This document shows positions 9,408 through 34,261 of a stretch of DNA of 64,000 bases, one piece after another. The first letter of the stretch is position 1. The number at the start of each line of letters is the position of its first letter. Under the pieces are notes generated by a model, which saw only the letters and a list, made by a program, of their open reading frames with translations, was not told where the DNA came from and ran no database searches. A program made the translations under genes and the position numbers. This DNA is from Pseudohoeflea suaedae (GTDB taxonomy: Bacteria; Pseudomonadota; Alphaproteobacteria; Rhizobiales; Rhizobiaceae): NCBI RefSeq assembly GCF_004354915.1, contig NZ_SMSI01000001.1, forward strand, positions 682,001 through 746,000. Direction: 5' to 3'.

Positions 9408-10328
9408 ATGTCCAGGGTCGTTGTTCTCGGTGTTTTCAACGCCGATGTCGCCTTCCGTGCCGATCGCCTGCCGAAGATGGGCGAAACCATTCACGGCAAG
9501 AGCTTTCACCTCGGGCCCGGCGGCAAGGGATCGAACCAGGCGGTCGCCGCTGCCCGTGCCGGTGCCGACACCCACATGATTACCCGTCTGGGCAAGGACG
9601 CCTTCGCCGAGATGGCGCTGGAGATCTGGCGCGACGCCGGCGTCACCCCGGTCATTACCCGGCATGCCGACAGATCGACCGGCTCGGCCTTCATCTTCAT
9701 CGAGGAGCATTCCGGCAACAACGCGATCATCATCGCGCCGGGGGCCGCGGCCTCGATGACCAATGCGGATATCGACGAGCGCGCGAAACTGATCTCGGAA
9801 GCCGACGTCTTCGTCACCCAGTTCGAGCAGCCCATGGGGCCGGCTCACCATGCGCTCGAGATCGCCCACAAGGGGCGGGCCATCACCGTGCTCAACCCGG
9901 CGCCGGCAATGGACATGCCCGAGGGCATGCTGGCATTGTGCGACTATGTCACCCCCAATGAGAGCGAGGCCGAGGCGCTGACCGGCATCAAGGTCGTCTC
10001 GCTCGATGACGCCCAGCAGGCCGCGATGGCGCTGGTCGCGCGTGGGGCGGGGGCCGCGATCCTGACGCTCGGCGAGAAGGGTGCGCTGTTCCATAACGGC
10101 TCGGAAACGGTTCATGTGCCGGTGATGAACGCCGGCGGCGTGGCCGATACGTCGGGCGCGGGCGACGCGTTCAATGGCGGGCTGGCTGCGGCACTGGCGC
10201 GGGGCAAGGCGCCCGAAGAGGCGCTGCGCTTCGCCGCCGCGACGGCCGCGATTTCCGTCACGCGCCATGGCACTGCGCCCTCCATGCCGAGCGAAGCGGA
10301 AATCCAGGCGCTGCTCGCGCGGAGCTAG
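9408..10328 (+). CDS. rbsK: Ribokinase (PfkB family sugar kinase)
   Basis: Phosphorylates D-ribose to ribose 5-phosphate with ATP in the cytoplasm. The 306-residue length is normal. The N-terminal PfkB signature GPGGKGSNQAVAAARAGAD is present, and the C-terminal signature GAGDAFNGG places the catalytic Asp at 253. AGAGGAAA lies before the ATG at 9408. No ribose transporter or rbsD is adjacent, so the source of ribose is not shown. Ribokinase is favoured over other PfkB kinases by the GGKGSNQA form of the first signature. Confidence 0.88.
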   Translation: MSRVVVLGVFNADVAFRADRLPKMGETIHGKSFHLGPGGKGSNQAVAAARAGADTHMITRLGKDAFAEMALEIWRDAGVTPVITRHADRSTGSAFIFIEEHSGNNAIIIAPGAAASMTNADIDERAKLISEADVFVTQFEQPMGPAHHALEIAHKGRAITVLNPAPAMDMPEGMLALCDYVTPNESEAEALTGIKVVSLDDAQQAAMALVARGAGAAILTLGEKGALFHNGSETVHVPVMNAGGVADTSGAGDAFNGGLAAALARGKAPEEALRFAAATAAISVTRHGTAPSMPSEAEIQALLARS

Positions 10329-10335
10329 TTCGTAC

Positions 10336-11703
10336 TCAGTTGGCCGGGCGGATGCGGATGCCGAACAGCTCGACCGCCCGGCTGTTGCCGCCGACATCGC
10401 TGTTGATCGAGATCGTGCCGCCGGAATTGGGGGCCATGGCGCGGGTGAAGTCCACCTCGATCAGCGCGTCGCTGGCCTGGCTTTCGGCATTGAAACGCCT
10501 GCGGCCGCAATCGCCCATCGTGCCGAAATCGCATGTGACGTAGAACGCCGTCGGCTGGTCGCCCGCCGCCCGCACGGTGAGCGCGATCACCGAGGCGCGC
10601 CCCGCCAGTTCGTTGAGCGCGGCGGCATCGATCGGCAGCGCCACTTCGCCGTCTTCGCCGGGGCTGGCCGAGGTCACGACGATAGCCCGGCCGTTGCCTG
10701 CCTCGGTGAATTCCGCGCTGGCCAGGCTCCCGGTGGAGATCGCGTCATTGTCGCGAGGCGCGTAGATCGTCGTCCAGTTCCCCGAAAAGCCGCTTTCGGG
10801 ATTGAGCCGGCGCGGACCACTTCCGTCGCCGCTGAAATCCTCGGAACTCACGGTCGGCGGCGGATTGGGCACCGAGGTGTCCCAATCCGGATCCAGCGCG
10901 CCGGTGGAGTAGAGCCACCATACGCCCATGCCGAGGAAGGACAGCAGAACGAGGCTCGAGAATGCCGAGGCAAACCGGTGCTTCTCGCGCCGGCGCGGCT
11001 TCTTTCCCTTGACAGGTTCCGCGTCCGGTTGTGGCGTCTTGTCCCTGCGCGAAAAGATGCTCGACCGGCGGGCATCGTCCTCGCCCTGCGCACGGCGCGG
11101 CGGGGGCAGGGTCAGGCCGTCGTCGACGGGCATTGCTTCCGGCCTGTCGCGGATGATCTCCGGGGCGGTTTCGGTCCGGTGTGGCGCGGCATGCGCCGGT
11201 GGCTCCTGCCGTTGCTGCCCGCGGGAACCGATGTCGATGCGTGGCGCACGCTCGGCCGGCGCGGCGCGCTCCTCGGCCGGCGAGAAGCTCAAGTCCGGCT
11301 CGGCGTGTCCGGTGCGCGGCGCCGTGCCGGAAGCTGCGGGGGCCAGATCTACTGGCGACGGATCTGTGGGTGCTGCATCGATGCGGATATCAGGCGTGCG
11401 CTGCGGTTCAGCCGGCCTATCGTCGATCGAAGGGGCGGTCCCGTTACCGTCCGGCTGAGCCGCCGGCGCCACATGCGGCGCGCTCATCGGCGCCTGTCCC
11501 TGATATTCGCGTTCAATGACGGAAATCAGGTCCTTCAGCCGGCTCACCTGCGGGCGGACCAGTTCGGGATTGGTAATGCCGCGAGTTTCGAGATTGCGGA
11601 TGAGCGCGTCATGCGCTGTCCTGTAAATCCGGGCGCGTTGCGTTTCGTCCGGGTTCTCGACCCGGCTCAACGCGTTGCGGATTGCCGCTTCCATTCCCTT
11701 CAA
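10336..11703 (-). CDS. Conserved membrane-anchored protein of unknown function
   Basis: 455 residues with no recognised enzyme domain. Residues about 1-65 are a helical region with many charged residues. Residues 66-240 are Pro-, Ala- and acid-rich and look disordered. A Lys/Arg cluster (GKKPRRREK) precedes one membrane segment, SLVLLSFLGMGVWWLY, near residues 253-268. The remaining C-terminal part is probably periplasmic and beta-rich, containing CDFGTMGDCGRRRF with two cysteines. The start is uncertain: a TTG at 11703 with AAGGA upstream, or the ATG at 11694. It converges on ribokinase with 7 bases between stops. Function cannot be stated. Confidence 0.7.
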   Translation of the reverse strand: MKGMEAAIRNALSRVENPDETQRARIYRTAHDALIRNLETRGITNPELVRPQVSRLKDLISVIEREYQGQAPMSAPHVAPAAQPDGNGTAPSIDDRPAEPQRTPDIRIDAAPTDPSPVDLAPAASGTAPRTGHAEPDLSFSPAEERAAPAERAPRIDIGSRGQQRQEPPAHAAPHRTETAPEIIRDRPEAMPVDDGLTLPPPRRAQGEDDARRSSIFSRRDKTPQPDAEPVKGKKPRRREKHRFASAFSSLVLLSFLGMGVWWLYSTGALDPDWDTSVPNPPPTVSSEDFSGDGSGPRRLNPESGFSGNWTTIYAPRDNDAISTGSLASAEFTEAGNGRAIVVTSASPGEDGEVALPIDAAALNELAGRASVIALTVRAAGDQPTAFYVTCDFGTMGDCGRRRFNAESQASDALIEVDFTRAMAPNSGGTISINSDVGGNSRAVELFGIRIRPAN

Positions 11704-26064: not shown

Positions 26065-27753
26065 TCAGTCCCGCAATTCGCGCCGCAGGATCTTGCCGAC
26101 ATTGGACTTCGGAAGCTCGTCGCGGAATACGATATATTTCGGCCGCTTGTAGTTCGTCAGCTCCTTGGCGCAGAACGCCTTGATATCGGCCTCCGTGAGG
26201 TTCGGATCCTTGCGGACGACGAACAGCTTGACGACTTCGCCCGAATGCTCGTCGGGTGCGGCAACGGCTGCCGCCTCGACGACGCCCGGATGGGAGGCCA
26301 CAACCTCCTCGATCTCGTTGGGATAGACGTTGAAACCCGAGACGAGGATCATGTCCTTCTTCCGGTCGACGATCTTGATGTACCCGTTCTCGTCCATGAA
26401 GCCCATGTCGCCGGACCGGAAATATCCGTCCTTGGTCATCACCTTGGCGGTCTCGTCCGGCCGGTTCCAGTATCCTGCCATGACCTGCGGCCCGCGGATG
26501 CAGATTTCGCCCACTTCGCCGAGGGGCAGCGACTTGCCGTCGTCATCGCGGATATCGACGTCGGTGGAGGGGAGGGGGACACCGATGGTGCCCGAGAATT
26601 CCGATTTGTCGAAGCGGTTGGCCGTGGCGACAGGCGAGGTTTCCGACAGGCCGTAGCCTTCCGAAATCGGGCAGCCGGTGACTTCCATCCAGCGTTCGGC
26701 AACCGGCCGCTGGACGGCCATTCCGCCACCCAGGGTCAGCTTCAGGTGGCTGAAGTCGAGCTTGCGGAATTCCTCGTTGTTGAGCAGGCCGTTGAAGAGC
26801 GTGTTGAGCCCGGGAAACACGTTGAACTTGAATTTCTGCAGCGTCTTGACGAAAGCCGGCAGGTCGCGCGGATTGGGGATCAGCACGTTGAGCGCGCCCT
26901 TGTTGATGCCCACCACGCCGTTCACCGTCAGGGCGAAGATATGGTAGAGCGGCAGCGCGCAGATGTAGATGAAATCGTCCGGCTTTTCCTTGCCGATATA
27001 GGCGGTCTCGAGCCACAGCTCGTTCTGACGCGCATTTGCCAGCACGTTGGAGTGCAGCAGGATCGCACCCTTCGAGACGCCGGTCGTGCCGCCGGTATAC
27101 TGCAGGAATGCGATGTCGTCATGGCCGACCTTGTGGTCGACGAGCTGCCTGCCGGAGCCGGCCGAAAGCGCGGTCTTGAAGGGAACATGGCCGGGCAGCG
27201 ACCAGGACGGAACCATCTTCTTGATGTTGCGGACCACGAAATTGACGATGTGTCCCTTCAATCCCATCAGATCGCCCATCGAGGCGACGGCTACGTGCTT
27301 GACCTCTGTCTTGTCGATGACCTGCTCGAGGGTCGAGGCGAAATTCTCCAGGATGATGATCGCCCTGGCGCCCGAATCCGTCAGCTGATGAAGGAGTTCG
27401 CGCGGCGTGTAGAGCGGATTGACGTTGACGACGGTCATGCCTGCCCGCAGGATCGCGGCGATCGCGACCGGGGTCTGCAGGATGTTCGGCATCATCACGG
27501 CGACGCGATCGCCTTTCTGGAGGCCCAGCCCCTGCAGCCAGGCGCCGAGTTCGCGCGAGAGCTTCTCGAATTCCTTGTAGTCGATGGTCTTGCCCATGCA
27601 CTCGAAGGCGGGCTTCGAGGCATACTGGCGGCAGCTGTCTTCGATCAGCGCTCCGACCGACTGGTACTTGAGCTCGCCGATCTCGGCGGGGGTGATGTCG
27701 GCATAGGATTTGAGCCAGATGCGCTCAGCGGCTGCCGTTGTGGTCTGATCCAT
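26065..27753 (-). CDS. fadD: Long-chain fatty acid-CoA ligase
   Basis: ATP-dependent acyl-CoA synthetase that activates fatty acids for beta-oxidation or lipid synthesis. 562 residues. The AMP-binding motif QYTGGTTGVSKGAIL is complete, EGYGLSETSPV is the adenylate pocket, and FRSGDMGFMDENGYIKIVDR with the following KKDMI covers the hinge. The final LPKSNVGKILRREL carries the catalytic lysine. GGGAG precedes the ATG. A LiuR-like palindrome lies 112 bases upstream. Beta-oxidation genes at the far end of the window (60511-63958) would use its product. Confidence 0.92.
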   Translation of the reverse strand: MDQTTTAAAERIWLKSYADITPAEIGELKYQSVGALIEDSCRQYASKPAFECMGKTIDYKEFEKLSRELGAWLQGLGLQKGDRVAVMMPNILQTPVAIAAILRAGMTVVNVNPLYTPRELLHQLTDSGARAIIILENFASTLEQVIDKTEVKHVAVASMGDLMGLKGHIVNFVVRNIKKMVPSWSLPGHVPFKTALSAGSGRQLVDHKVGHDDIAFLQYTGGTTGVSKGAILLHSNVLANARQNELWLETAYIGKEKPDDFIYICALPLYHIFALTVNGVVGINKGALNVLIPNPRDLPAFVKTLQKFKFNVFPGLNTLFNGLLNNEEFRKLDFSHLKLTLGGGMAVQRPVAERWMEVTGCPISEGYGLSETSPVATANRFDKSEFSGTIGVPLPSTDVDIRDDDGKSLPLGEVGEICIRGPQVMAGYWNRPDETAKVMTKDGYFRSGDMGFMDENGYIKIVDRKKDMILVSGFNVYPNEIEEVVASHPGVVEAAAVAAPDEHSGEVVKLFVVRKDPNLTEADIKAFCAKELTNYKRPKYIVFRDELPKSNVGKILRRELRD

Positions 27754-27953: not shown

Positions 27954-28379
27954 TCAGTTGTACGGCGAGTTGCAGTACTTGCGGTAACCCGAATGGGACA
28001 TGTAGGTGTCCGACGGGATGTCGTAGGACCGGTAGCGGTTCAGGCACCAGGCGACGTGGGCGTTCGAGCTGCCACCGCCGGTATAGACCGGCTGCTGGGC
28101 GGGCTGGTTGGCAATCGCGTTGCCGATGATCATTCCACCGACGATGCCGAGTGCAGCAGCGGCTGCGGCGTTGCCATGGCCGTGATGCGGGTTGTGCGGC
28201 TTGGGGGGCTTCGGCGGGTTTGGCTTGAAGCCGCCCGGGCCGGGGAAGACCGGCTTCACGATGCCCGGATTCTTGATGAACTTCTTCGGTGCTGCATCGG
28301 CGATTGCCGGCTGGAATGCGGTTGCCATGGTGATGGCCGTGGCGACGGTGAGGATGGTCTTCTGAATGATGCTGGTCAT
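27954..28379 (-). CDS. Secreted BA14K-family protein
   Basis: 141 residues from the ATG at 28379, behind AAGGAGACAG. Residues 1 to about 27 form a signal peptide ending in AIADA. A Pro/Gly/His-rich middle follows, then an Ala/Gly segment (AAAAALGIVGGMIIGNAI) that resembles a membrane helix. The C-terminus matches the BA14K consensus: H-x2-WCLNRYRSYD, then Y..HSGYRKYCNSPY with two cysteines. BA14K of Brucella is an immunoreactive protein with lectin-like activity; function in this organism is not known. It lies after the CRP-type regulator gene. Confidence 0.85.
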   Translation of the reverse strand: MTSIIQKTILTVATAITMATAFQPAIADAAPKKFIKNPGIVKPVFPGPGGFKPNPPKPPKPHNPHHGHGNAAAAAALGIVGGMIIGNAIANQPAQQPVYTGGGSSNAHVAWCLNRYRSYDIPSDTYMSHSGYRKYCNSPYN

Positions 28380-28497
28380 GATCTGTCTCCTTTTGGGTTG
28401 CGCCTGTCTCTCCGGCGTTGAGTGGAGATTAGGCGGCAGCCCTCGGGAGCGCTGTGCACTAGCGCACACGGTGAAAAGGTGTTTTTATTTCAATGGT

Positions 28498-29184
28498 TTA
28501 TTCGCCAGTCCAGGCACTGGTGAGCAGTCGCGACAGCGTTTCCGGCTTCAGAAGCACCAGCCCGCCGCGGCTCGCTTCGACGATCGCATCGGTCTTCAGC
28601 CGGGCAATCTCGCGGGAGACCACCTCGCGGCGACAGCCGATGCGCTCTGCGAGTTCCGACTGGTTGGGCGGCGGACTGACGATGCGCTGGTCGGGCTTGC
28701 CCGAGCGCGGGCGCGACAGCCGGATGAGCTCGTTGTAGAGCCGGAATTTGGCGTCGAGGAAGGAATGTTCGGCGACCCGCATGTTGAGCTGGCGGATGCG
28801 CTGGGTCAGCACCTGCATCACCGTCATGGCGACATCCGGATAATCGGCGAGCAACTTGCGGAACACCGAAGCTGGCATGGCGCAGATCCGGCTTTTTGCC
28901 GTCGTCGTCACATTGGCCGACCGGATGTCTCCGTCGATTGCCGCCAGTTCGCCGAAGAACATGCCGTCGCCGATCTCGCCCAGGATCATTTCCTTGCCGC
29001 TCGGCGCCCGGAAGATCACGCGCACCCCGCCCGACAGGATGAAGCGCACGTCGGTGGTTGTGTCCGCGTAATCGACCACGAGTTCGTGATCGTCATAGCT
29101 GACCCAGTTGCACTGCCGTGCGATTGTGGCGAGCGCGTCGCCGGGAATGCCTGCAAGCAGGGGTATGCTGTCGAGTTGATCCAT
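28498..29184 (-). CDS. CRP/FNR-family transcription regulator, CRP-like
   Basis: 228 residues from the ATG at 29184 (an ATG at 29202 is possible; neither has a good ribosome site). The N-terminal cyclic-nucleotide domain includes the phosphate cassette FFGELAAIDGDIRSANVTT, in which the G-E-L and R-S-A positions that bind cAMP in E. coli CRP are kept. A long helix leads to an HTH, NQSELAERIGCRREVVSREI. No cysteine cluster of FNR is present. It lies 80 bases after a CHASE2 adenylate cyclase gene on the same strand, so it may be the receptor for that cyclase's product (inference). Confidence 0.85.
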   Translation of the reverse strand: MDQLDSIPLLAGIPGDALATIARQCNWVSYDDHELVVDYADTTTDVRFILSGGVRVIFRAPSGKEMILGEIGDGMFFGELAAIDGDIRSANVTTTAKSRICAMPASVFRKLLADYPDVAMTVMQVLTQRIRQLNMRVAEHSFLDAKFRLYNELIRLSRPRSGKPDQRIVSPPPNQSELAERIGCRREVVSREIARLKTDAIVEASRGGLVLLKPETLSRLLTSAWTGE

Positions 29185-29264
29185 ACGAGGTGGCCCCACC
29201 ATGTGTCTGGTCGCATAGTTGCACAGCCAGGCCGCCGCGCCAATTATCACCCCGTCATGAGGTG

Positions 29265-31142
29265 TCAGTCAGGCAGGCGAAGCGCAAAGCCCGGCACGGC
29301 TTCCGCAAAGCCCGAGAGTTCGAAATCCCCCGCAGGCTCCACCTCGCGGGGAATGCGTCGCGCCAGCTCCGGTCCGCATAAAACGCTTGCCGCGCTCAGT
29401 TTGGTTGCCGTTTCCAGCCGCGAGGCGAGGTTCGCCGCATGGCCGATGACCGTGTAGTTGTAGCGAATGTCGGAGCCGAAATTGCCGACCGAGCAGACAC
29501 CAGTTTCAAGCCCCGCGCCGAGCCGGATCGGCTCGAGACCGCGCTGCGCCAGGTGCGCGTTTTCCGCGTCGAGCCGGCGATAGATCGCGCGGACGGCCCG
29601 GATCGCCCGTTCCGCATGGTCGGGCTGGTCGAGCGGCGCGTTCCAGAACGCCATCACCGCATCGCCCATGAACTTGTCGATCGTTCCTTCGGTGCGGAAG
29701 ATCTCCTCGCTCGAAAGTGTCAGGAAGCGGTTGACGTTGGCGACGATCTCCTCCGGCGCCAGCCGTTCGGACGCGGCGGTGAAGCCGCGCATGTCCATGA
29801 AGAGGACGGTGACTTCCCGCCGCTCCGCCGATCGCCCCACGTCTTCCTCCGAGCGGATCAGCCGTTCGACGACATCCGGTGAAAGATAGCGTGCGAACTG
29901 GCCGCTGATCTGCCGCCGTCTCGTTTCTGCCGTGCGATAGAGGAAATAGCCGCCCGCCGCCGCAACGATTGCGAGCCCGATCGTCGGCCTGAGCGCGTCG
30001 AAGAGTTCGCCCTCCATGCGCCAGGCAAGCAGACCGGCCGCAAATGGCGCGCAGAATATCAGCGGCAGCGCCATCAGTACGGGCAGCGGATAGACGGGGA
30101 AAAATGCGACTGAGAGGATCAGGAGAACAGCGAGAAGGCCAAAGCCTGTACGTTCCACGGTCTTGGCGTAAGCCGGCTCGTAGGGGAAATGGCCAGCCAG
30201 GATCTGCGCGGTCAGCAGCGCATGGATCTCGACGCCGGGGCGTGTGGCCACGAGCGGGGTCGTGTGGAAACTGTCAAAGCCGGTGGCAGCGACCGAGAGA
30301 ATGACGATCCTGTCGCGCAGCGCGTTTCCTGGCGTCCCATCGAGCAGATCGAGTGCGCTCACGCGGGTAAGATCCTGAGCGGCGTCGGCCAGCCAGACGG
30401 CGCCGCCCGCAGTCAGCCGCACGATCCTGTCGCCGACCTTGACCGCGTCATAGCCTTGCGGGCCGAGCCGCACCGTATAGTCGGTCTCGCCCAATGCCTG
30501 GCGCGCCAGATCGAGGGAGAGCGCAGGCCAAAGCGTCAGTCCGTCCGGTCCCGCAACGGCCCAGAGCATCGGCACCGAGCGCGTCACGCCGTCATCGTCG
30601 GGCACCGAGCGCACCATGCCGAGGCCGCCTGCGGCGCCGGTGAATTCCGGCAGCGAGGCGAGAAGTCCGGGAAAGGTGGCGAGGGTGTCGGGCGCCTCTC
30701 CGACGACCGACCATCCGGCCGCCGGCGCCGGCTCGGCGCTGCCGGCCTGATCGGTCAGGCTCATGGCGAGCACGGGGCGCGTCCGGGCGATGGCCTGCGA
30801 CAGCGCCGCGTCGCCTTCATCGGTTCCACGGTCGGGAAACAGGATGTCGATCGCGAATGCTGCCGGTTCCTGCGTGCCGATGGCTTCGATCAGGCTCCCG
30901 ATCTTGGTCCGCGGCCACGGCCAGCGGCCTTCGCGGGTCAGCGATGCGTCGTCGATTTCCACCAGCACGATGTCTTCGAGCGGGATCTCGACCGGCGCGA
31001 TCTGCTGGTAGAGGTCGTAGCTGCGACCGCGAATCCGGTCGAAGGCAGACGTGAAGAGAATATCGCAGATCAGGAGCAGCAAGGCGAGGATCGCCATGCG
31101 CGCCGCCGGACGGCGCAACATGCTGCCGCTGTTTCCTTGCAT
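29265..31142 (-). CDS. CHASE2-domain adenylate cyclase
   Basis: 625 residues from an ATG that shares one base with the fecR stop (TGATG). One membrane segment lies near residues 15-31, then an extracytoplasmic CHASE2 sensor (about 35-315), then about three membrane segments near 320-400, then a class III nucleotide cyclase domain. The catalytic metal acids are D450 (in VLFMDMRGF) and D494 (MGDAVMAF), and the purine-site region includes NYTVIGHAANLASRLE. The domain should be active. The signal sensed is unknown. It follows genes for an outer-membrane protein and a FecR protein and precedes a CRP-type regulator. Confidence 0.88.
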   Translation of the reverse strand: MQGNSGSMLRRPAARMAILALLLLICDILFTSAFDRIRGRSYDLYQQIAPVEIPLEDIVLVEIDDASLTREGRWPWPRTKIGSLIEAIGTQEPAAFAIDILFPDRGTDEGDAALSQAIARTRPVLAMSLTDQAGSAEPAPAAGWSVVGEAPDTLATFPGLLASLPEFTGAAGGLGMVRSVPDDDGVTRSVPMLWAVAGPDGLTLWPALSLDLARQALGETDYTVRLGPQGYDAVKVGDRIVRLTAGGAVWLADAAQDLTRVSALDLLDGTPGNALRDRIVILSVAATGFDSFHTTPLVATRPGVEIHALLTAQILAGHFPYEPAYAKTVERTGFGLLAVLLILSVAFFPVYPLPVLMALPLIFCAPFAAGLLAWRMEGELFDALRPTIGLAIVAAAGGYFLYRTAETRRRQISGQFARYLSPDVVERLIRSEEDVGRSAERREVTVLFMDMRGFTAASERLAPEEIVANVNRFLTLSSEEIFRTEGTIDKFMGDAVMAFWNAPLDQPDHAERAIRAVRAIYRRLDAENAHLAQRGLEPIRLGAGLETGVCSVGNFGSDIRYNYTVIGHAANLASRLETATKLSAASVLCGPELARRIPREVEPAGDFELSGFAEAVPGFALRLPD

Positions 31143-31948
31143 CACGGGCCGGTGGTCGGTGGGGTCGTGGGGAAGGTGCCGGGGCCGTTGTCGCCGCCGC
31201 CCGTGCTCGGTATGCGCGGACTGCCGCGCCCCCCGGTGACGCCGCCGGGCAACTGAGCGTCGCGGCTCTTGCACCGATCGACGAGGAAGGCAGCCGGGCC
31301 GGAACAGGGCGCCTTGGCATCCACATCGGGCCCGCGCGTGCCGGGCTCGTTCGTGCCTGCCACCTTGTTGGTGGAATCGAGGATGGAAAAATTGAACGCG
31401 CTGCGCATGGTCGACAGCCCGCCATTGTCTGCCACGCACGAAAAGCCCGGCTTGGTGATGACCTTGGTCACGCCATTGGCGGAACAGGTGAGCTTGCCGG
31501 CCCTGAGGGTGGCGACGGTCTGGCTGCCGACGGCGAGATCGACGATGCCGCCGCGTACGGCAAGCACCACATGGGGCGTGGTGATCTGCATCCGGCCCTT
31601 CTTGGAAATCTGCCCGCCGAAAAAGCGCGTGATGCCGCGGTCCATGCGGATGCCCGTCGAGCCGGCGCCGGCGCCATAGACGAAATCGTCGATCGTGAGC
31701 GACGAGTTCGGGCCGATCTTGGCGCTCGACTGATCCTTGAAGAGGATGACGCCGAGGCCCGTATCATTGCTTCTGAGCCGGTCGCCCAGCGAAATTCCCG
31801 AACCTTCGGACAAGGCCTGCCCGCCGCGCGAGACGCTGGTCTGCAGCGCGGTCACCCGGCCGACAGTCTCAGCGAGCGCCGGTGTGGTGCAGGTGGCCAG
31901 TCCGCCGAAGAGGGCGGCAGCCATGGCTATGTTGGGACATCTCGACAT
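31142..31948 (-). CDS. Secreted FecR-domain protein
   Basis: 268 residues with a signal peptide (cleavage near TPALA, residue 26). The middle resembles the FecR domain: GDRLRSNDTGLGVILFKDQS then GPNSSLTIDDFVY, and ITTPHVVLAVRGG. This beta-rich periplasmic fold is found in sigma-factor regulators and in stand-alone proteins. No anti-sigma N-terminal domain is present, so it is not a classical FecR. Four cysteines occur in the second half and the C-terminus is Gly/Pro/Thr-rich. GGGAGG precedes the ATG. It lies between an outer-membrane protein gene (10 bases upstream) and the CHASE2 cyclase (1-base overlap). Confidence 0.82.
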   Translation of the reverse strand: MSRCPNIAMAAALFGGLATCTTPALAETVGRVTALQTSVSRGGQALSEGSGISLGDRLRSNDTGLGVILFKDQSSAKIGPNSSLTIDDFVYGAGAGSTGIRMDRGITRFFGGQISKKGRMQITTPHVVLAVRGGIVDLAVGSQTVATLRAGKLTCSANGVTKVITKPGFSCVADNGGLSTMRSAFNFSILDSTNKVAGTNEPGTRGPDVDAKAPCSGPAAFLVDRCKSRDAQLPGGVTGGRGSPRIPSTGGGDNGPGTFPTTPPTTGP

Positions 31949-31958
31949 GACGGCCTCC

Positions 31959-33242
31959 CTAGAACCGGTGCGTATAGCCGAGGCTGAACGCGTGGATGAT
32001 GGAGCCCCTGCCGGACAGGCCCGGCTGATCGAAATCCGTATTGGTCACTTCCCAGGACGCATCGATGCGATTGTGTCCGTCGATCTGGAAGTGATGTATC
32101 CATTCCGCCCGCCAGTGCTCTCCGGAAAACCGTTGAGGCAGGCTCGGCGGAATGGCGACAGTATAGAACGTTCCTGCCGCAAGCACCACGTCATGCGTCC
32201 AGATGGTGCCGAGAGGCTGGAAAGGCAGGCGGCCCGAATAGCTGAATTCTGCCTCCTCGATCCGTCCGGTCATCACGCCGTTGACCGCATATTCGTAGCG
32301 CCCGCGCCCGGCGATGCCGACCGAATGCGCCTGGCTCAGCCGGACGCTGCCGCCGACTTCCCAGCCCTGTGCATGATCCGCGTAGATCCCGTCCGATTCC
32401 GAGAGATCCTCATAGCTGTACTCGGCGTAAAGTCGCGTATCGACCGTCGGCATGACGACGCCGCGCACCACGCCGCCAAGTGACCGGTAGCGGATGGTGG
32501 GGTGGACCGTGGAATAGTCGGTGAAGACACCCACCTGCAGGCGTGCCGCGTCGAACATGTCGACGGGCAATCCCATGTCGAACGTGGCCGAGGCCCGCCC
32601 GTCAAGCGCGTTGACCGTGTCTCCCTCCGGCTGGCCGTACCAGGAGGCATAACCCATGTAGGCGTCCTGGAATTCCCGCGTCACCCCGAAGCGTCCCGCA
32701 AGTATGATTGCGTTGCCCAGCGCCGTGCCGAGATCGTAGCGCAGGGCCCCGGCGAGTTCGCCATAGGCCCCCGTCACGGTCCGGTCGCGCCAGGAGTTGA
32801 ATGGCACGTCGACATCGAAGCTTGTCACCCGAATGCCGGCCGTTGCGTCGATGAACCATTCGAAACCGGCGATGGCCTGCGCGGCGCGCCGCGACAGTTC
32901 GGTCGCTTCGGTGGTTTCGGCGGCGGAAAGCTGTCCGGATGCAAGCGCCTCGTCGGCCTGTTTCTTCGCAAGGTCCCACGAGCCGACATTGGCATAGAGC
33001 CGCGCCGCCGCGAGCCGCGCCTTGCCGTCATCGGCGAAGCGGACGAGATGTTCCTCGATGGACGAGATCGCCTGGTCGTACTGCCCTTGCGACGTTGCCG
33101 TGCGGATATAGGCGCCGAGAACGAAGACGTCCTCGGGATTTGCGTAGCGCGTTGCAAAGGCACCATCGAGCGTTTCCGCCTGCGCGGCGGAGAAACCGAA
33201 TGCAGTCGTCGGGACGAGAAGGGCGGCCAACAGATGTTTCAC
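31959..33242 (-). CDS. Probable outer-membrane barrel protein with helical N-terminal repeats
   Basis: 427 residues starting with GTG at 33242 (GGAAG 8 bases upstream). A signal peptide ends near AAQA (residue 22). Residues about 35-130 look like TPR-type helical pairs (ISSIEEHLVRFADDGKARLA then AAARLYANVGSWDLAKKQAD). From about 130 to the end, alternating polar and aromatic residues form repeated strands, and the protein ends in GYTHRF; a terminal Phe is the usual outer-membrane barrel signal. Function unknown. It heads an operon with FecR and CHASE2 cyclase genes, suggesting a link between cell surface state and cAMP (inference). Confidence 0.7.
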   Translation of the reverse strand: MKHLLAALLVPTTAFGFSAAQAETLDGAFATRYANPEDVFVLGAYIRTATSQGQYDQAISSIEEHLVRFADDGKARLAAARLYANVGSWDLAKKQADEALASGQLSAAETTEATELSRRAAQAIAGFEWFIDATAGIRVTSFDVDVPFNSWRDRTVTGAYGELAGALRYDLGTALGNAIILAGRFGVTREFQDAYMGYASWYGQPEGDTVNALDGRASATFDMGLPVDMFDAARLQVGVFTDYSTVHPTIRYRSLGGVVRGVVMPTVDTRLYAEYSYEDLSESDGIYADHAQGWEVGGSVRLSQAHSVGIAGRGRYEYAVNGVMTGRIEEAEFSYSGRLPFQPLGTIWTHDVVLAAGTFYTVAIPPSLPQRFSGEHWRAEWIHHFQIDGHNRIDASWEVTNTDFDQPGLSGRGSIIHAFSLGYTHRF

Positions 33243-33349: not shown

Positions 33350-34261
33350 CTAGTCGACACCCCAGTTCAGGATGGCCGAATAGCCTTCGCCGAGGATGTT
33401 GCCGTCGATCTCGCCGATGGCCTTTTCGTCCTTGCCGTCATAGGGCAGTTCCATCAGCATCCGGCGGATGATGTTGATCCGCGCCCGGCGTTTGTCATTG
33501 GCGCGCACCACGGTCCAGGGGGCCTGCGGGGTATGCGTGGCCTGCAGCATCTGGTCGCGCTTGGCCGTATAGTCGTCCCACTTGTTGAGGCTCGCGATAT
33601 CCATCGGCGACAGCTTCCAGATTTTCAGCGGATCGTGGCGCCGGTCGTGGAAGCGCTTGAGCTGCATTTCGCGCCCGATATTGAGCCAGAACTTGAAGAA
33701 GTGGATGCCCGCATTGACCGGCATGCGCTCGAAATTCGGCGTTTCCTCGAGAAAATGCTCATGCTCCTCCGGCGTGCAGAAACCCATGACCGGCTCGACG
33801 CCGGCGCGGTTGTACCAGGAACGGTCGAAGAGAACGATTTCGCCCGAGGTCGGAAAGTGGTCGACATAGCGTTGATAGTACCACTGCCCGCGTTCCTTCT
33901 CGGTCGGCTTGGGAAGCGCCACCACCCGGGCCGAGCGCGGGTTCATGTATTCACGCGTGGCGTGGATCGAGCCGCCCTTGCCGGCGGCATCCCTGCCTTC
34001 GAACACCGCGATGACGCGCTTTCCGGTCTCTCCGAGCCAGGACTGCACCTTGACCAGTTCGATCTGGAGCCGCTCCAGCGTCTCTTCGTATTCCTTGCGG
34101 TCGAGCTTGTCGTCATAGGGGTAGCCGCCCGACTCCATCGCCTCGTCCTTGACCCAGTCCGGCAGTTTGGGATTGTCGATGTCGAAGAGCCGCTCCTTCC
34201 CGGAGACCATGATCTTGATGCCACTATCCGTATCGGCTTTCGTCTTGCTTGACTTGCTCAT
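33350..34261 (-). CDS. ppk2: Polyphosphate kinase 2
   Basis: Uses polyphosphate to phosphorylate nucleoside diphosphates, or the reverse. 303 residues, the one-domain PPK2 length. Walker A-like motif [13 protein letters not shown], then the Walker B-type region [18 protein letters not shown], and the lid region around W-K-L-S-P. It is divergent from phoR, at the edge of the phosphate regulon, with 164 bases between starts; a TGTCATAAA word in that gap may belong to a Pho box. Whether it favours GDP or ADP is not evident. Confidence 0.92.

Follow-up and report, generated by a model that had tools for sequence, protein, structure and literature searches.

CHASE2 is a common sensor domain, and to our knowledge its ligands are mostly unknown. 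The described systems that come closest are cited here from excerpts of the papers, and all statements on published systems in this text refer to those excerpts. In the NsrA-CyaK-Clr system of S. meliloti a CHASE2 cyclase is found beside FecR, TPR and barrel parts, and its cyclic AMP (cAMP) acts on a CRP-family regulator (PMC7529298, PMC13001267, PMC10127613). The barrel of NsrA comprises residues 600–1200, and NsrA is needed together with CyaK for the perception of signal 1 (PMC7529298). S. meliloti has three CHASE2 cyclases (PMC13001267), and in the BiofilmReg operon of Burkholderiales the ligand of CHASE2 is likewise unknown (PMC5192318). The locus described here is a row of four genes in a stretch of 64,000 nucleotides from Pseudohoeflea suaedae (contig NZ_SMSI01000001.1, positions 682,001 to 746,000), hereafter called the window, coding for a TPR-barrel protein, a FecR-domain protein, a CHASE2 cyclase and a CRP-family regulator. 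Judged from their sequences, these genes, with a BA14K-family gene as a likely fifth, probably make up one cell-surface signalling cassette, apparently movable as a unit, that holds the whole path to cAMP and CRP. Surface-to-cAMP pathways are already known, and it is the split-gene, self-contained form that appears to be new; no description of a split, CRP-carrying cassette was found in the literature searched outside the NsrA paper PMC5952392, which may mention split homologues.

The four genes and their products

The four genes are, in the order of transcription:

31959..33242, minus strand: TPR-barrel outer-membrane protein, 427 aa (AlphaFold2 model, Pfam TPR matches below cut-off, fold match to CymA and OmpG)
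31142..31948, minus strand: secreted FecR-domain protein, 268 aa (Pfam PF04773; signal peptide by eye)
29265..31142, minus strand: CHASE2 class III adenylate cyclase, 625 aa (Pfam and catalytic residues)
28498..29184, minus strand: CRP-family regulator, 228 aa from ATG 29184, or 250 aa from GTG 29250 (Pfam)

All are located on one strand at the positions given in a first-pass annotation of this DNA, and are spaced as stated there by 10 bases, one shared base and 80 bases, the last value holding for the CRP start at ATG 29184. The alternative in-frame start at GTG 29250 leaves a gap of only 14 bases between the cyclase and CRP genes.

The barrel protein has a signal peptide, seen by eye, and an AlphaFold2 model from 10 sequences (mean pLDDT 81.3) with helices at residues 39–125 and 14 strands at residues 127–426. 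It had been described as a protein with a TPR-like start that ends in Phe. The helices agree with the first half of this description, and Pfam gives the protein four TPR matches, each below its cut-off, but the C-terminal Phe is not a family trait, since it is kept in just three of the ten aligned barrels (window, L074 and L081). Among the chains listed in a fold comparison that covers mainly residues 120–427, the nearest are the 14-strand porins CymA (Z 22.5, root-mean-square deviation 3.2, 274 aligned residues) and OmpG (Z 22.1, 3.5, 261), which could mean that the barrel acts as a porin, or as a Slam-like exporter whose client would be the FecR protein, and is co-inherited for assembly or transport without being the sensor, FecR alone tuning the CHASE2 cyclase. 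We regard this as unlikely. The layout of TPR plus barrel resembles Slam, one relative (in G035) matches PF04575 (Slam/SlipAM) at 3.8e-4, just under the cut-off, and in 80 named loci, some of them cut by contig ends and with loose barrel/TPR and cyclic-nucleotide (cNMP) labels, FecR is found within 3 kb of the cyclase more often (35 loci) than a barrel or TPR match (18 loci; a cNMP-domain match in 12). On the other side, the window barrel has no PF04575 match up to E 1, and NsrA carries FecR and barrel in a single polypeptide, which fits a sensor complex. Neither Slam nor NsrA is among the listed fold matches of residues ~120–427, an absence that excludes nothing.

PF04773 (1.2e-7) is the sole Pfam domain of the FecR-domain protein, in agreement with the earlier statement that it lacks an anti-sigma domain. 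The protein has a signal peptide, seen by eye, and no strong hydrophobic segment, and it is the single FecR match in the genome of the window. A search for solved structures related to it by sequence gave none up to E 10, and its AlphaFold2 model, with a mean pLDDT of 44.8, was set aside.

The cyclase shows the Pfam domains CHASE2 (5.6e-45) and Guanylate_cyc (9.5e-12), laid out as a hydrophobic segment at 11–37, CHASE2, a hydrophobic stretch at 328–374 and then the cyclase domain. Class III cyclases use two metal-binding Asp, a Lys and a Thr or Asp for the substrate, and an Asn and an Arg for the transition state. The metal acids D450 and D494 are intact as previously reported, and with K490, T564, N571 and R575 all six catalytic positions are kept. 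Adenylate rather than guanylate cyclase activity is expected from these residues, since the set is complete and K490 and T564 match those of CyaB (3r5g). It is the only class III cyclase match and the only CHASE2 match in the genome, and a search covering classes I and III gave no class I match there; the closest named cyclase match is that of Hoeflea sp. SAT27 with 89%.

The regulator shows the Pfam domains cNMP_binding (9.7e-16) and HTH_Crp_2 (1.6e-10). The cyclic-nucleotide contacts G78-E79-L80 and R88-S89-A90, pointed out before, are present, but the full contact set does not seem to be kept, with L133 and N134 at the positions of T127 and S128 of E. coli CRP. The R-E-x-x-x-R of the recognition helix, which we take to be the residues reading TGTGA, is conserved. 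The top-scoring solved relatives are 3mzh and 3d0s, presumably both M. tuberculosis Rv3676, a cAMP-binding CRP, with 76.9 bits for 3mzh against 44.5 bits for 7pza, which we assume to be Clr. Five more cNMP-binding matches are found in the genome.

Conservation of the gene order and of the locus

In a cyclase tree of 97 rows, from which L032 was left out as it is from the same genome as L074, the window cyclase falls in a clade of 12 rows (SH-aLRT 100) from Rhizobiaceae, Phyllobacteriaceae, Ahrensiaceae, one unclassified alphaproteobacterium and two more genomes. The barrel, FecR and cyclase genes, below called the trio, are on the same strand and in the same order in 12 of these 12 rows, the number of independent rows being lower because L034 and L075 are near-identical. 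FecR adjoins the cyclase in ten of the rows; an acyltransferase gene intervenes in L034 (from genome G036; 9629–10408) and in L075 (8178–8957). A survey of the four-gene order had been proposed, and the order is upheld for the trio but not for the CRP gene, which adjoins the trio only in the genus of the window, in three of the 12 rows (window, L074 and L033).

Upstream of the barrel gene, and on the same strand, Mesorhizobium L076 has a SulP-type transporter with STAS and cNMP-binding domains, while the SulP, STAS and cNMP parts are split over two overlapping frames in L078, and L077 has a different gene at this place. In five of the 12 rows the trio has a cNMP-binding protein as its neighbour, a CRP in three of them and a SulP-cNMP protein in the other two, and the SulP-STAS-cNMP transporter is a possible non-transcriptional cAMP effector of a similar module. 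Genes of this type are seen near CHASE2 cyclases in L076 (4304–6517), L078 (4279–6484), L091 (11564–13789), L093 (12456–14681) and L085 (10029–12212). Neighbours were labelled by iterated hidden Markov models (HMMs), of which the barrel HMM picks up generic TPR proteins as well, and the CRP HMM cNMP-domain proteins other than CRP. The CRP label was consequently rejected for L076, L085, L091 and L093 (SulP-STAS-cNMP proteins), for L132 (a lactamase-fold protein with a cNMP domain), and for L102 and L128, where the gene, located upstream of the cyclase, lacks a helix-turn-helix and gives nothing beyond a cNMP match below cut-off. In Rhodobacterales L102, L103, L113 and L128 the cyclase faces a pair of genes on the other strand, one for FecR and one for a TPR protein. 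CHASE2-type cyclases are also found beyond Proteobacteria or within Campylobacterota, in L106, L111, L107 and L144 (Nitrospirota, Nitrospinota, Chlamydiota and Sulfurimonadaceae), with FecR nearby in L106, L111 and L144.

In 61 genomes, the window's own and 60 relatives, 37 of the 72 FecR matches are located at most 5 kb from one of the 79 cyclase matches listed, compared with 0.48 expected for a uniform 4.3-Mb genome. Both FecR and cyclase are found in 37 genomes, FecR alone in 2, cyclase alone in 7 and neither in 15 (Fisher p 2.4e-7), in counts that ignore relatedness and include some cyclase matches without CHASE2. A neighbourhood that arose by chance insertion, of genes without a common pathway, is highly improbable in view of this co-location, of an order conserved across Rhizobiaceae, Phyllobacteriaceae and Ahrensiaceae, and of the fused equivalents of NsrA type; in its favour, the CRP start lies 80 bp from the cyclase stop, a distance that makes an own CRP promoter possible.

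The genus of the window is represented by four genomes, the window's own (G000), G001, G002 and G003. The trio and a CRP ortholog are found in G000, G001 and G003 (100, 97 and 91% respectively), whereas in G002, which is 99% complete, cyclase and FecR gave no match and a CRP ortholog is missing, the best match to CRP being at 23%. The flanking genes are kept in G002, with a distance of 169 bp from the stop of the PPK2 gene to the likely start of the acyl-CoA synthetase (ACS) gene, and barrel, FecR, cyclase, CRP and BA14K have no match in a 17-kb stretch at this locus, barrel and BA14K having been sought there only. In the window the remaining features of the locus are:

33350..34261, minus strand: PPK2 polyphosphate kinase, which borders the cassette upstream (Pfam; flank comparison with G002)
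28453..28468, no strand: palindrome of CRP type, TGTGC-N6-GCACA, located 73 bp before the BA14K start ATG 28379
27954..28379, minus strand: BA14K-family secreted protein (PF07886, 5.8e-11)
26065..27753, minus strand: presumed acyl-CoA synthetase, named by us from its sequence, downstream border of the cassette (flank comparison with G002)

PPK2 adjoins ACS without the cassette also in G015, of another genus and one of 15 same-family loci examined outside the genus, which makes an insertion in the Hoeflea line a simple, though not proven, reading. BA14K is likely the fifth member of the cassette and a possible regulatory target; it is, with the palindrome and the NsrA precedent, an addition to the first-pass annotation. 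The gap between the PPK2 and barrel genes is 107 bp, which a longer transcript could span. In many relatives a histidine kinase gene on the opposite strand adjoins PPK2.

These data also bear on whether the regulator answers to the cyclase next to it. With the trio taken as real, the CRP protein could respond to another ligand or to none, and cAMP could act on another cNMP-binding protein, for which the L133/N134 replacement, the five further cNMP-binding matches, the adjacency in only three of 12 trio rows and the SulP-STAS-cNMP gene upstream in two Mesorhizobium trio loci all speak. We nevertheless hold this to be quite unlikely: the CRP gene is present or absent together with the trio in four of four genomes of the genus, the regulator has retained its GEL and RSA contacts, and the top-scoring solved relatives are the structures that we assume to be Rv3676.

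Palindromes and possible targets of the CRP protein

The site located between the stop codon of the CRP gene and the ATG of BA14K reads TGTGCGCTAGTGCACA in G000, TGTGCGCTAGCGCACA in G001 and TGTGCGTTAATACACA in G003, with the TGTG/CACA half-sites kept in G001 and G003. The pattern TGTGC-N6-GCACA, derived from the window site alone, was searched in the genus and found at 5 places in G000, 13 in G001, 4 in G003 and 2 in G002. Read backwards as a control it gave 3, 2, 1 and 3 places in the same genomes, and the genome-wide excess is therefore small outside G001. All five places in G000 have a positional counterpart in G001. A palindrome precedes the gene of a secreted VWA/PAN protein by 70 bp in G000 and 69 bp in G001 (the proteins being 47% identical), that of a YkuD L,D-transpeptidase by 61 bp in both, and ureD by 121 bp in G000, 123 bp in G001 and 130 bp in G003.

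Palindromes before the genes of BA14K, ureD, VWA/PAN and L,D-transpeptidase: window 28453–28468; L201 4116; L200 3965; L203 4066

The fifth place in G000 (L202), in probable coding DNA, was not counted as regulatory, being inside an open frame and ~1515 bp from the single start codon tested. Under the exact pattern G003 shares only the ureD place, and that of BA14K by half-sites alone; its four exact matches include neither the VWA nor the L,D-transpeptidase place. The ureD upstream region of G002, which aligns poorly, has no site, and neither of the two places in G002 is at the VWA, YkuD or ureD genes. The pattern TGTGCGNWANNNCACA has 0 matches in G002, which is only suggestive because the pattern was built from the sites that it finds. 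Since G000 and G001 resemble each other throughout these upstream regions, the conservation of the sites amounts to moderate evidence, and at this strength it points to a CRP regulon weighted to envelope genes; another CRP/FNR protein could own these palindromes.

The proposed pathway and its relation to known systems

The path proposed at first, from the outer membrane by FecR and CHASE2 to cAMP and CRP, is the most likely reading and would work as follows. The TPR-barrel in the outer membrane and the periplasmic FecR protein would report the state of the surface or periplasm to CHASE2, upon which the inner-membrane cyclase would make cAMP, probably as the main source of the cell. The cAMP would activate the neighbouring CRP, and this protein may bind sites of the TGTGC-N6-GCACA type, one of them before BA14K, and so act on BA14K and other envelope genes. 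Contacts between barrel, FecR and CHASE2, the direction of signalling, the binding of cAMP and DNA by CRP, and a ligand are all assumed in this path. What was observed comprises the domains, the intact catalytic residues, the order of the genes, conservation, the palindrome, and one locus from which the genes are jointly missing. The path is favoured by the trio order in 12 rows, the NsrA fusion, the joint absence in G002 and the sole class III cyclase. The barrel, whose membership had been proposed from position, is linked by more than that, through the same conserved order, the fusion next to CyaK and the absence together with the other genes in G002.

Several results weigh against this path. 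The CRP gene stands beside the trio only in the window's genus and its contacts appear incomplete, the co-occurrence counts take no account of relatedness, and one event may account for the joint absence in G002. The palindrome is not found in the window above chance, with one found compared with 1.78 expected at up to one mismatch. When the barrel profile was compared with NsrA, 52 TPR columns aligned with a probability of 29.7 and no barrel similarity was detectable. The idea is also not new in kind.

A wider proposal, which we put forward only tentatively and think more doubtful than the cassette itself, is that of a compact, horizontally acquired, five-gene envelope-sensing system, in which cAMP would replace an extracytoplasmic function (ECF) sigma factor, the TPR-barrel and a free FecR would read the outer membrane for the only class III cyclase, and a dedicated CRP would control BA14K, the L,D-transpeptidase, the VWA/PAN protein and possibly urease, while in relatives the trio would feed another cNMP effector, e.g. 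the SulP-STAS-cNMP transporter. As CHASE2, FecR and class III cyclase are each matched only once in the genome, every step can be deleted on its own without redundancy, which S. meliloti with its three CHASE2 cyclases does not allow (PMC13001267). The likely partners of CHASE2 are here separate soluble and membrane proteins, and the cassette could serve as a minimal model for the passage of a signal from the outer membrane to a cyclase in the inner membrane.

For comparison by sequence, NsrA and CyaK were assigned by position and domains in an unannotated record of S. meliloti 1021 pSymB, and we take it that nsrA directly precedes cyaK on the published map. The frame upstream of the CHASE2 cyclase overlaps it by one base, and its translated stretch has FecR at 57–151, TPR matches at ~369–578 and a terminal Phe. 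The profile of the FecR alignment matches the NsrA alignment with E 4.5e-9. Nine NsrA-type cyclases form their own clade (SH-aLRT 100), separate from that of the window (also 100), and the window cyclase was thus rejected as a member of the CyaK clade. Eight loci labelled clr-like form a third cyclase clade (89), with a CRP-type gene at most 66 bp from the cyclase in four of the eight. One genome, G017 (L058 3386–9847), has an NsrA-type FecR-TPR-barrel fusion, a cyclase and a CRP gene (cNMP, HTH_Crp_2; 22.5% identical to the window CRP) on one strand in that order, indicating that the same four functions exist in at least two genetic forms.

Signalling of the FecI/FecR sigma type was ruled out. 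Unlike in FecI-FecR-FecA, the FecR protein of the window has no cytoplasmic anti-sigma domain and no membrane anchor, and the partner is a 14-strand barrel with TPR helices and without a Pfam match to the plug or signalling domain of a TonB-dependent receptor. The MtxA cluster of magnetotactic bacteria likewise has a signal-peptide protein, with TPR-type repeats in some strains, followed by a CHASE2 adenylate cyclase gene, but the word FecR is absent from the text of PMC4439547 and no barrel is reported in the excerpt. In the BiofilmReg operon a secreted FecR-domain protein stands beside a CHASE2 membrane sensor, but there the sensor is a histidine kinase, FecR is mostly combined with LysM, and the output is a response regulator (PMC5192318). 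A cluster in Campylobacterota shares the CHASE2 cyclase, a TPR protein and a FecR-domain protein described as outer-membrane, and differs in having a phosphodiesterase and, in the excerpt, no CRP gene named as a member (PMC9239204). In the clr-cyaD1-smc02177-smc02178 region of S. meliloti, compared by its description and not by sequence, a CRP gene, a CHASE2 cyclase gene, a FecR gene and a secreted Clr target gene are close together as in the window, but the excerpt mentions no TPR-barrel gene (PMC5498481). From NsrA-CyaK-Clr the window differs in its 14-stranded barrel without detectable profile kinship to that of NsrA and in its cyclase of another clade; FecR and TPR-barrel are here separate genes instead of one polypeptide, and the CRP gene is located inside the cassette.

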